43,996 bases of DNA, taken from positions 1 through 43,996 of the forward strand of contig CAJXBA010000008.1 of assembly GCA_913050185.1 (NCBI GenBank). The letters run 5' to 3'. The position numbers were made by a program, and so were the translations under genes. This document shows, one piece after another, positions 18,455-38,091 of the stretch (positions within the stretch are counted from its first letter, which is position 1; the number at the start of each line of letters is the position of its first letter). This stretch comes from an uncultured Pelagibacteraceae bacterium. GTDB taxonomy: Bacteria > Pseudomonadota > Alphaproteobacteria > Pelagibacterales > Pelagibacteraceae. The notes under the pieces are model-generated. The model was not told the DNA's origin and did not search any database. It saw nothing but the letters and a program-made list of their open reading frames with translations.

Positions 18455-18622
18455 GAAAGACATAACGGGAGAAACTGCTGAGTAGTGCAGTGCCGACGGA
18501 GACAAGTTGCTAAATCCTGTAACGAAACTCTCAGGCAAAAGGACCGTACATAATAACTCTGGAAAGAAGGTTTTTTGCCTCACCGAAGGAGTAAATCTCT
18601 CAGGTAACCGGACAGAGGGGGC
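18455..18622 (+). ncRNA. Tandem glycine riboswitch controlling gcvTHP
   Basis: Two glycine aptamers lie directly upstream of gcvT. Aptamer 1 (about 18463-18549) has the signature GGGAGA, a P2 hairpin CTGC/GCAG, GCCGACGGAG, and CTCTCAGGCAAAAGGACCG. Aptamer 2 (about 18557-18622) has CTGGAAAGA, a G-rich/T-rich P2, TCACCGAAGGAG, and CTCTCAGGTAACCGGACAGAG. Its closing helix is CTCTG (18557-18561) with CAGAG (18613-18617). A short linker joins the two, as in classical cooperative tandems. There is no terminator between aptamer 2 and the start codon, so control is probably at translation. TAATAACTCT (18551-18560) is also perfectly complementary to AGAGTTATTA (18629-18638), which includes the first base of the gcvT start codon. 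Confidence 0.95.
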
Positions 18623-18637
18623 TGATTAAGAGTTATT

Positions 18638-19732
18638 ATGGAAATACAAAAAACAGCTTTATATAATTACCACAAGAGTCTCGGAGCAAAATTTGTTTCT
18701 TTTGCTGGGTATGAAATGCCAGTTCAGTATTCATCTGGTGTAATAGAGGAACATAAAATGACCAGAAATAACGCAGGTTTGTTTGATGTTTCGCATATGG
18801 GGCAGTTATTAATAGAAGGAAGTATAGATTTAGCAGAAGAATTAGAAAAAATTATCCCTATAGATCTAGAGAAAATAAAACTTAACCAATCGAAATATTC
18901 CTTTCTTACCAATGAAAATGGCGGAATCTGTGATGATTTAATTGTAACCAAGGTTGAAAATGGTTTTAATATCATTCTCAATGCGGCATGCAAAAATAGT
19001 GACTTCAAAATATTTAAAAATTCGCTTGGGAATAAATTCAAATTAACACTACATAAGAATTTATCCCTAATTGCATTACAAGGACCAAATTCTTCAGAAA
19101 TTTTAGAAAAAATAATTCCGAAGGTTTCTTCGCTCAAGTTTATGAATGGAAATAAATTTTCTTTTAGTGAGAAAAGTGTTTACGTTACTAGATCTGGTTA
19201 TACAGGAGAGGATGGTTTTGAAATTTCTCTGCCAGACAATCTTGCGGAAAATTTTGCTAAAAGGTTAATAGAACAGGGAGCCAAACCAATAGGTTTAGGA
19301 GCAAGAGATACGTTAAGATTAGAAGCAGGATTATGTTTGTATGGTCATGACATTAGTGAAACGACGAATCCTATTGAAGCAAACCTTAAATGGGCAATTT
19401 CCAAAAGAAGAAGAGAAGAGGGCGGTTTTGTGGGGTATAGCAAAATTAAATCAGATATTAATGGTAGATTAAACCGCTTGAGAATGGGCATAAAACCTGA
19501 GGGGAAAATTATAGCACGAGAAGGTGTCAAAATTTTTTCTAAGGATAATCAAGAAATAGGACTGATCACAAGCGGAAGTTTTGGTCCAAGTGTTAATGGT
19601 CCTGTGGCAATGGGTTATGTAAAATATGATTTTTCTAAACCTGGGACCAAAATCCTCTTGGAAGTTAGAGGAAAAAAATGTGATGCTGAAGTATCTGAAC
19701 TTCCTTTTTATAAAAAAAGTTATGTGAGGTGA
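18638..19732 (+). CDS. gcvT: Glycine cleavage system T protein (aminomethyltransferase)
   Basis: A 364-aa T protein that transfers the methylene group from the H-protein arm to tetrahydrofolate and releases ammonia. Family blocks are YHKSLGAKFVSFAGYEMPVQ at the N-terminus, GLFDVSHMGQLLIEG (conserved Asp of the folate site), RSGYTGEDGFEIS, and LGARDTLRLEAGLCLYGHDI. The C-terminal barrel domain includes GLITSGSFGPSVNGPVAMGY. Length is standard. It is the first gene after the riboswitch, and its start codon lies within a possible regulatory helix. The next gene starts 3 nt after the stop. Confidence 0.97.
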   Translation: MEIQKTALYNYHKSLGAKFVSFAGYEMPVQYSSGVIEEHKMTRNNAGLFDVSHMGQLLIEGSIDLAEELEKIIPIDLEKIKLNQSKYSFLTNENGGICDDLIVTKVENGFNIILNAACKNSDFKIFKNSLGNKFKLTLHKNLSLIALQGPNSSEILEKIIPKVSSLKFMNGNKFSFSEKSVYVTRSGYTGEDGFEISLPDNLAENFAKRLIEQGAKPIGLGARDTLRLEAGLCLYGHDISETTNPIEANLKWAISKRRREEGGFVGYSKIKSDINGRLNRLRMGIKPEGKIIAREGVKIFSKDNQEIGLITSGSFGPSVNGPVAMGYVKYDFSKPGTKILLEVRGKKCDAEVSELPFYKKSYVR

Positions 19733-37019: not shown

Positions 37020-37877
37020 CTATATTTTTTTTAGGGCCAATACAGAGTGTAACGCTATCGTAACAATGATCACAATTCCTCCTAAAATAGTTTCTATACT
37101 CGGCTGTTCATGAATTACTAGCCAGACCCAAAGTGGACCCAATATGGTTTCAAGCAAGAAGAAAAGGTTGACCTCAGCCGCAGTAATATATCTTGGAGCC
37201 AAAGTTATCAGAACAAATGGTATTGCAACACACATGACGCACATGAGAGGAACAATAGTTAAGTCGTTTCCCTCCAATTTTAATTTGTCTACAAATAATA
37301 GTGCAATTAATGCTACCATTAATTTGCCCAGCATTGCCGAGGGAACTAGGCTAATTTTTTTTGCAGATCTTATGATTACAGCTCCAACGGCTAAACCAGT
37401 TGCACAAACCAAACCTAAAAAATTTCCTAAAAAATCCCCAGCATCCAGCGCATCATAAAAAATGAAAATTACTGCTAATGTAGTAATTATTATGGCTATC
37501 CAAGTTTTTTGATCTGGGTTTTCTTTCAAGAAAATGAAACTAATTATTGCAGACAACATGGGTGCCAGAGCGATCATTATCAAAGTATTTGCAACATTGG
37601 TATTTTCAATTGAAATAACAAACATAATATTTGTTACGGTAAATGTCCCGGCATAGGCAACACCATGCCAACCATTATTTACAAGCTCTGAAATTAATCT
37701 GTTCTTATAAATAATTAAAAGGCCAACGAAAACCACAAAAAAAGGAATAAATCCTCTATAAAAAATTAAATTCCAAGATTCAATACTGGCTAATCGAATA
37801 AATAAAGAATCCGGAGTAATAAACACGATGGCAGTAAATGCAAGTAACGTTCCCTTTTTTTGATTACTATATTGCAT
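37020..37877 (-). CDS. DMT superfamily permease with EamA domains
   Basis: A membrane protein of 285 aa from the chosen ATG, with ten hydrophobic segments in two EamA repeats. Visible blocks are FITPDSLFIRLASIESWNLI then FYRG, and LMIALAPMLSAIISFIFLKE. The second repeat has ITAAEVNLFFLLETILGPLW followed by VW. An ATG 45 nt upstream (37922) would add MCKFKHSNVLLSITI. I reject it because the strong bhmT promoter (37886-37914) would then lie inside the coding region, and the extra residues precede the normal family start MQYSNQKKGTLLAF. The gene diverges from bhmT. The substrate is unknown. Confidence 0.82.
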   Translation of the reverse strand: MQYSNQKKGTLLAFTAIVFITPDSLFIRLASIESWNLIFYRGFIPFFVVFVGLLIIYKNRLISELVNNGWHGVAYAGTFTVTNIMFVISIENTNVANTLIMIALAPMLSAIISFIFLKENPDQKTWIAIIITTLAVIFIFYDALDAGDFLGNFLGLVCATGLAVGAVIIRSAKKISLVPSAMLGKLMVALIALLFVDKLKLEGNDLTIVPLMCVMCVAIPFVLITLAPRYITAAEVNLFFLLETILGPLWVWLVIHEQPSIETILGGIVIIVTIALHSVLALKKI

Positions 37878-37885
37878 AATTGTAA

Positions 37886-37914
37886 TTGACAATAATACAT
37901 TAGAATGTTTAAAT
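37886..37914 (+). promoter_or_regulatory. Sigma-70-type promoter of the bhmT leader
   Basis: A perfect -35 TTGACA (37886-37891) is followed by a 17-nt spacer and TTAAAT (37909-37914), four of six matches to the -10 consensus. The predicted start site is near 37921, two nt before the first paired base of the upstream pseudoknot. This is the best promoter match in the window. Confidence 0.75.
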
Positions 37915-37922
37915 TTACACAT

Positions 37923-37972
37923 AGCGCCAAGTTGATTCGGATTGCGGGCGCTTTAAAAGTCCTGCAAAAGCG
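37923..37972 (+). ncRNA. SAM-II-like pseudoknot, distal element of the bhmT leader (candidate)
   Basis: P1 is AGCGCC (37923-37928) with GGCGCT (37947-37952). The loop contains TTGCG (37942-37946), which pairs across with TGCAA (37963-37967), and CG (37938-37939) can pair with CG (37971-37972). This is the SAM-II topology (P1, loop, P2 strand abutting P1', A-rich linker, P2 strand). The primary sequence differs from the SAM-II consensus I know, so the ligand is inferred from topology and from the downstream gene. It starts at the predicted transcription start and is followed by a terminator. Confidence 0.5.
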
Positions 37973-37980
37973 ATTGTTTT

Positions 37981-38010
37981 AAACCACCGACTTTAGTCGG
38001 TAGTTTTTTT
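37981..38010 (+). terminator. Intrinsic terminator in the bhmT leader (attenuator)
   Basis: ACCGAC (37986-37991) pairs with GTCGGT (37996-38001) around TTTA. AAAC (37981-37984) can extend the stem with GTTT (38003-38006) past one mismatch, and seven T end at 38010. It lies 60-90 nt after the predicted start site and 82 nt before bhmT. GACTTT (37989-37994) in its 5' arm and loop is complementary to AAAGTC (37956-37961) in the pseudoknot linker, giving a possible antiterminator. Confidence 0.8.
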
Positions 38011-38034
38011 GAAATTGATTTCAATTAAAAACCT

Positions 38035-38085
38035 GGTATTTAACCATATTGTGTACCCGATACTTATCGAAGCACTAAAAAGGAG
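38035..38085 (+). ncRNA. SAM-V (SAM-II family) riboswitch covering the bhmT ribosome site
   Basis: P1 is GGTA (38035-38038) with TACC (38054-38057). The loop carries TTTAACC, then TTGTG (38049-38053), which pairs with CAC and AA of CACTAA (38073-38078). CC (38044-38045) can pair with GG (38082-38083) of the Shine-Dalgarno AAGGAG (38080-38085). The core TTTAACC and ACTAAAAAGG closely match the SAM-II/SAM-V consensus. A small hairpin CGATA/TATCG fills the linker. SAM binding would hide the ribosome site. SAM-V before bhmT is established in Pelagibacter. Confidence 0.8.
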
Positions 38086-38091
38086 AAGTAG

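Follow-up and report, generated by a model that had tools for sequence, protein, structure and literature searches.

The tandem of SAM-II and SAM-V riboswitches known from Pelagibacter is one of the few natural cases in which a single metabolite is sensed twice, first at transcription and then at translation. Its counterpart upstream of bhmT in the window, the 43,996-nt stretch of contig CAJXBA010000008.1 from an uncultured Pelagibacteraceae bacterium analyzed here, raises the question of whether both stages still respond to SAM. Earlier work has described the tandem, the logic of its two levels and how it responds to sulfur limitation (PMC2704228, PMC5069961, PMC9481103). A sequence-only reading of the leader had proposed a promoter, a SAM-II-like pseudoknot, an intrinsic terminator and a SAM-V-like element on the ribosome site, and hence two layers of control by one metabolite, citing a Pelagibacter precedent before bhmT that indeed exists (PMC2704228, PMC5069961, PMC11508383, PMC9481103). 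The order of parts was borne out by the sequence, an Rfam scan and the leaders of the same genus. The two layers of control were not, as the equivalent of U44 is an A and the antiterminator is gone. We consider it probable, from comparison of sequences, that this is a SAR11 tandem bhmT leader whose first module lost its switch. The coordinates are collected in Table 1.

Table 1. Features of the bhmT leader in the window and the evidence on which each is based.
Feature	Position	Strand	Evidence
Putative sigma-70-type promoter	37886..37914	+	-35 TTGACA 37886-37891, 17 nt, -10 TTAAAT 37909-37914
SAM-II-derived aptamer	37922..37975	+	SAR11 SAM-II model, 48.6 bits, E 2.5e-9
Aptamer P1	37923-37928/37947-37952	+	SAM-II homology
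Aptamer P2	UUGC 37942-37945 with GC..AA 37964-37968	+	SAM-II homology
Aptamer P2a	37937-37938/37972-37973	+	SAM-II homology
Aptamer strand pairing with the terminator in relatives (CCUGCUAAAGCG), degraded here to CCUGCAAAAGCG	37961..37972	+	Covariation; shuffle test
Equivalent of U44 (SAM adenine contact in SAM-II), A here	37966	+	Alignment of 64 leaders
Intrinsic terminator	37981..38010	+	Stem ACCGAC/GUCGGU, loop UUUA, lower stem with C.A mismatch, 7 U
SAM-V aptamer	38024..38088	+	Rfam RF01826, 42.5 bits vs gathering 41
SAM-V P1; P2	38035-38037/38055-38057; 38049-38054/38072-38078	+	
SAM-V P3; P2a	38059-38061/38066-38068; 38044-38045/38082-38083	+	
Shine-Dalgarno AAGGAG, two G paired in SAM-V P2a	38080..38085	+	Sequence; mechanism by homology to PMC6061858
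bhmT, homocysteine S-methyltransferase, 354 aa	38092..39156	+	PF02574, 124 bits

The leader (37886-38091) is flanked by a divergent EamA-type transporter gene and the homocysteine S-methyltransferase gene. The minus-strand ORF 37020-37922 would overlap the promoter only when started at its first ATG, and an in-frame ATG at 37877 keeps the leader intergenic. The proposed motif TTGACA-N17-TTAAAT is present; its pattern alone is not above chance in this AT-rich DNA (1 found vs 2.1 in shuffles), and TTGACA stands at the same place in bhmT leaders across the genus of the window, where the order of TTGACA promoter, SAM-II, terminator, SAM-V and bhmT recurs. By homology and position, the parts thus follow the order of a tandem leader before a methionine gene. 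A hairpin with seven T ends at 38010, where the terminator had been predicted, and the region holds two terminator-like sites, with 0.3 expected from shuffles. For comparison, we used 63 further SAR11 bhmT leaders from named records that align end to end with the SAM-II and terminator of the window; no relatives were found in viral contigs.

The element next to the gene is a SAM-V aptamer by score and by predicted structure, and it contains the AAGGAG, as had been proposed. It exceeds the gathering score, forms the P1/P2 pseudoknot and P3, and keeps both the contact U38076 and the P2a pairing on the Shine-Dalgarno sequence, departing from the family at one conserved column only. In the alignment with 63 further leaders (59 distinct rows) SAM-V helices covary, including P3.

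The distal element, judged by homology, is SAM-II by descent. Of the two Rfam models by which the sequence-only reading proposed to check the leader, SAM-V passes its gathering score and SAM_alpha (SAM-II, RF00521) does not, with 24.0 bits of the required 36 (E 0.0033 at 37914-37989, cmscan). The SAM-II cut-off is however uninformative for SAR11, because 0/297 Pelagibacteraceae genomes reach it, while matches at E <= 0.001 occur in 183 of them. We relied on a SAR11 SAM-II model built from elements of other genera, with the genus of the window excluded; one of its members, L033, is presumably the sequence of the crystallized metX aptamer. This model detects the element in the window, at a score below the 62-68 bits of its genus mates. 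The pseudoknot begins at 37923 as predicted, is of the H-type, and its P1, P2 (UUGC/GC.AA) and P2a pairs can all form. GAUU/AAUC had been considered as P2 and was ruled out, as the published triples (PMC3764141) place P2 at UUGC/GC.AA. Across 63 distinct rows the SAM-II helices are 98% paired. Their covariation, put forward as a check on the distal helices, says almost nothing, because P2 never varies and P1 varies little; where covariation does occur, it links the core of the aptamer to the terminator.

The departure from the SAM-II consensus that had been noted earlier is seen in the Rfam score and in residue 44. U44 of SAM-II hydrogen-bonds the adenine of SAM and is described as completely conserved (PMC3764141), and at the equivalent base of SAM-V a replacement by isocytidine abolished binding (PMC6061858). 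The residue is a U in 63 of the 64 aligned leaders and an A in the window only; it is likewise a U in 30/30 checked SAM-II matches from a scan of 297 Pelagibacteraceae genomes, which in part are the same loci as the leaders. No second genome with A44 was found in this material. Because the contact base is absent, we file the element as SAM-II-derived rather than as a SAM-II riboswitch. The equivalents of U11, U21 and A47, which contact the sulfonium and methionine moieties, are retained, and besides column 44 the conserved columns altered are 37929 and 37959. As 31/34 conserved columns and every helix are kept, more than expected of a dead element, residual selection on the aptamer may remain. 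In the predicted fold of the window, U44A strengthens a hairpin, UUGCGGG/CCUGCAA, that competes with P1 and excludes it. Placing a U at 37966 in silico raised the probability of P1 from 0.53 to 0.90, but the antiterminator was not regained, and therefore at least two separate changes are involved.

What this antiterminator is becomes apparent from the relatives. There the loop and 3' arm of the terminator, CGCUUUAGC(A/C)GG, show complementarity to the strand CCUGCUAAAGCG of the aptamer. Over the 12 possible pairs, 90.5% of the cells are paired, and the covariation score is 0.177, as opposed to at most 0.025 for every slid register. This complementarity beats shuffled aptamer strands in 63/63 relatives, with a mean of -16.3 kcal/mol. 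Calculated without pseudoknot, SAM or transcription kinetics, the mean energy of the antiterminator is -11.9 vs -9.8 kcal/mol for the terminator, and the former dominates the ligand-free ensemble in 55/63 relatives; in several of them the U-tract pairs with the A-rich stretch of the aptamer. The sequence suggests that the helix is an antiterminator made up of the strand that binds SAM. The sequence-only reading had overlooked this helix, although it is the strongest evidence on the mode of action of the first layer. We did not find its complementarity or covariation described in the literature. Poiata 2009, reportedly the original SAM-V paper and the one credited with the tandem SAM-II/SAM-V of HTCC1062 bhmT, may already draw an antiterminator.

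From these observations we infer how an ordinary tandem, represented by the 63 relatives, would work. CCUGCUAAAGCG, the 3' strand of the pseudoknot, could pair with either of two partners but not with both at once. If SAM binds while the RNA is being transcribed, the strand would stay in the pseudoknot, the terminator would fold and transcription would stop. Without SAM, the strand, including its SAM contacts, would pair with the loop and 3' arm of the terminator, often extended by the A-rich stretch of the aptamer on the U-tract, and polymerase would read through. SAM would thus have to secure the pseudoknot while the terminator is still untranscribed. Transcripts that reach full length would next be subject to SAM-V, whose SAM-bound form would occlude the Shine-Dalgarno sequence.

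The terminator of the window is a rebuilt one: an A has been inserted into the loop, the upper stem is longer, seven U stand in place of nine, and there is one mismatch. Its hairpin has a calculated energy of -10.3 kcal/mol. The duplex of aptamer and terminator reaches -8.7 kcal/mol (p 0.31 vs shuffles), the weakest of all 64. In the ligand-free fold the probability of the antiterminator is 0.00 and that of the terminator 0.98, as opposed to means of 0.76 and 0.13 in the relatives. The window is thus alone among 64 leaders in having U44 replaced by A and an antiterminator complementarity no better than shuffled. The antiterminator would no longer form because of the rebuilt terminator (the inserted A and the longer upper stem) together with A44. 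Most likely the transcriptional stage is no longer SAM-responsive and control rests on SAM-V; the hairpin would terminate a SAM-independent share of transcripts, and SAM would act on bhmT mainly at translation.

The antiterminator itself could be a by-product of a terminator and an aptamer that are conserved separately, with no helix involved, and the finding that 10/12 pairs are without compensatory change, so that the covariation rests on two columns, is in line with this. Those two do covary, however, while the slid registers do not: columns 54-79 are paired in 64/64 leaders as C-G, A-U or G-U, and the second variable pair appears as G-C, U-A or A-U in 54/64. The bhmT DNA tree, used for counting independent changes because the BhmT protein tree with just 2 supported contrasts is too weak, gives six independent contrasts on supported branches, all agreeing (sign test p 0.031), a count that leader recombination could inflate. 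In view of this and of the shuffling results in all relatives, we judge a mere by-product improbable. An error in the draft assembly, with a true sequence that has U44 and a normal terminator, has slightly less to recommend it. The 1.24-Mb draft, whose genus mates are recorded as Pelagibacteraceae, does consist of 87 contigs with 3.5% contamination, and we found no second record of the species, which is represented by one assembly. Yet the error would have to account for several separate differences (37929, 37959, 37966, the inserted A in the terminator loop and 38002) and for a new terminator stem that is internally complementary, and the U44 introduced in silico does not restore the antiterminator. 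Moreover, the bhmT product itself is only 79-89% identical to its genus mates.

If the differences are real, they could still be compatible with function. The adenine of SAM could perhaps still be paired by A44, in a trans A.A geometry. A fully working canonical tandem would tolerate A44, its SAM-II would still bind SAM, and another antiterminator would substitute for the lost one; the hairpin that excludes P1 could act as such a switch, and the promoter, the terminator, SAM-V, all SAM-II helices and most conserved columns are kept. The presence of U44 in all other SAR11 SAM-II elements examined, its complete conservation in the published account (PMC3764141), and the ligand-free prediction of a nearly fully formed terminator beside an antiterminator not above chance make this unlikely. 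A change of ligand seems hardly probable at all: A44 and G10 (37931) would have to form a new base-reading triple, and while the contacts equivalent to U11, U21 and A47 remain as the adenine-reading base changes, the antiterminator was lost simultaneously, G10 occurs together with U44 in 13 relatives, and neither a second A44 genome nor a change of the regulated gene is seen. Only marginally better are the prospects of an element re-tuned rather than broken, in which A44 and G10 would recognize some other base or metabolite, and a new switch would consist of the rebuilt terminator together with the UUGCGGG/CCUGCAA hairpin. If true, an ordinary SAM-V would here be preceded by a variant of SAM-II whose ligand has changed.

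Loss of the switch in the first module thus remains our preferred reading, and the helix that it presupposes bears on an observation made with 'Candidatus Pelagibacter ubique' HTCC1062. Feng et al. (2024) reported that isolated SAM-II responds to SAM while the SAM-II of the full-length RNA does not, and that oligonucleotides against the linker restore the response, which the authors did not understand (PMC11508383). We recovered the HTCC1062 leader (L137, from G045; its coordinates match Table 1 of PMC2704228). A helix between nt 41-52 and nt 66-78, numbered as in that study, is predicted at a probability of about 1 and buries the contacts U46, A47 and A49. In the model, an antiterminator would explain the failure of SAM-II to respond within the full-length RNA: once the RNA is complete, its SAM contacts would lie buried in this helix, so that SAM-II would be readable only during transcription. 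The covarying helix between core and terminator is thus a specific and testable answer to the puzzle of 2024. Note that one of the oligonucleotides covers the U-tract and not the terminator loop (PMC11508383), and that the HTCC1062 fold pairs the U-tract with the Shine-Dalgarno region. In this leader and six others (L070, L074, L080, L101, L104 and L107), some 70 nt separate SAM-V from bhmT. They include a pyrimidine tract, CUUCUUUUCUCC, with two potential partners, the Shine-Dalgarno sequence of SAM-V and a second GGAG before bhmT, which would make it a possible relay.

The comparison also revealed a miniature SAM-II directly upstream of SAM-V in Pelagibacter metY and mmuM leaders, which are listed as SAM-V only (PMC2704228); this arrangement appears to be unreported. 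The element has a 3-bp P1, all contact bases and a P2a of UCC/GGA, and follows the pattern GCC-GAUUUGAUCC-UAUUGC-GGGC-N6-9-GCUAAANNGGA, 20-35 nt before SAM-V. One P1 pair shows a compensatory change. The SAR11 SAM-II model matches every miniature element searched with 25-33 bits, while Rfam finds it just once, weakly and not at threshold. It lacks a terminator in 25 leaders fetched from SAR11 genus g3, whose metY/mmuM leaders, HTCC1062 included, are L136, L138-L140, L142-L144 and L146-L165. In three leaders of the genus of the window (L003, L005 and L022) it is followed by an intrinsic terminator, SAM-V and metY, and L023 carries the full bhmT-type tandem before metY. We make no claim for a switch helix CCGAUU/AAUCGG of the metY leaders, as it is 95% paired but does not covary.

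No close metY homolog was found in the genome of the window. A weak SAM-V of 33 bits (L002 1501-1565; contig C5 21236-21300, minus strand) stands beside rplM, where metY is found in HTCC1062. It lacks a clear Shine-Dalgarno sequence, no metY follows it, and it has the appearance of a remnant riboswitch whose gene was lost. In L006 (G022) and L007 (G003), the Shine-Dalgarno sequence of SAM-V serves a short ORF before bhmT, of about 45 aa in L006, and not bhmT itself. Ten leaders labelled SAR86 (L116, L118, L120, L122, L124, L126, L128, L131, L132 and L135) have a single SAM-II-like element without SAM-V before a bhmT that is 76-77% identical to the SAR11 gene, which suggests gene transfer or a wrong label. 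The window also contains, at 18549-18625, a glycine riboswitch (RF00504, 56 bits). It is separated by 12 nt from a gene at 18638 that encodes 364 aa and resembles gcvT, the gene of an aminomethyltransferase.

Set against the known systems, the distal element shares with SAM-II (RF00521, structure 2QWY) the H-type pseudoknot, P1, P2 and P2a, the U-rich L1 and the GC-AAA strand, and differs in the A at U44, an A at the position of G8, a G at that of U10, and its Rfam score of 24 vs 36 bits. The proximal element has P1, P2, P3, the contact U and the P2a overlapping the Shine-Dalgarno sequence in common with SAM-V (RF01826, PMC6061858) and is ordinary but for a P1 mismatch of 38034 with 38058 and a U.G pair in P2. 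With the bhmT tandem of HTCC1062 the leader has the gene and the order of parts in common, SAM-II preceding an intrinsic terminator and SAM-V preceding the gene, but U44 and the complement for the antiterminator are missing, and SAM-V directly covers the bhmT start, whereas in HTCC1062 SAM-V and bhmT are several tens of bases apart. The window thus offers a natural case in which helix and contact base were lost and the second sensor was kept. 'Bi-mechanism' tandem riboswitches likewise combine control of transcription and then of translation by one ligand (PMC9481103), but in the genome of the window the first of these stages is predicted to be unresponsive.
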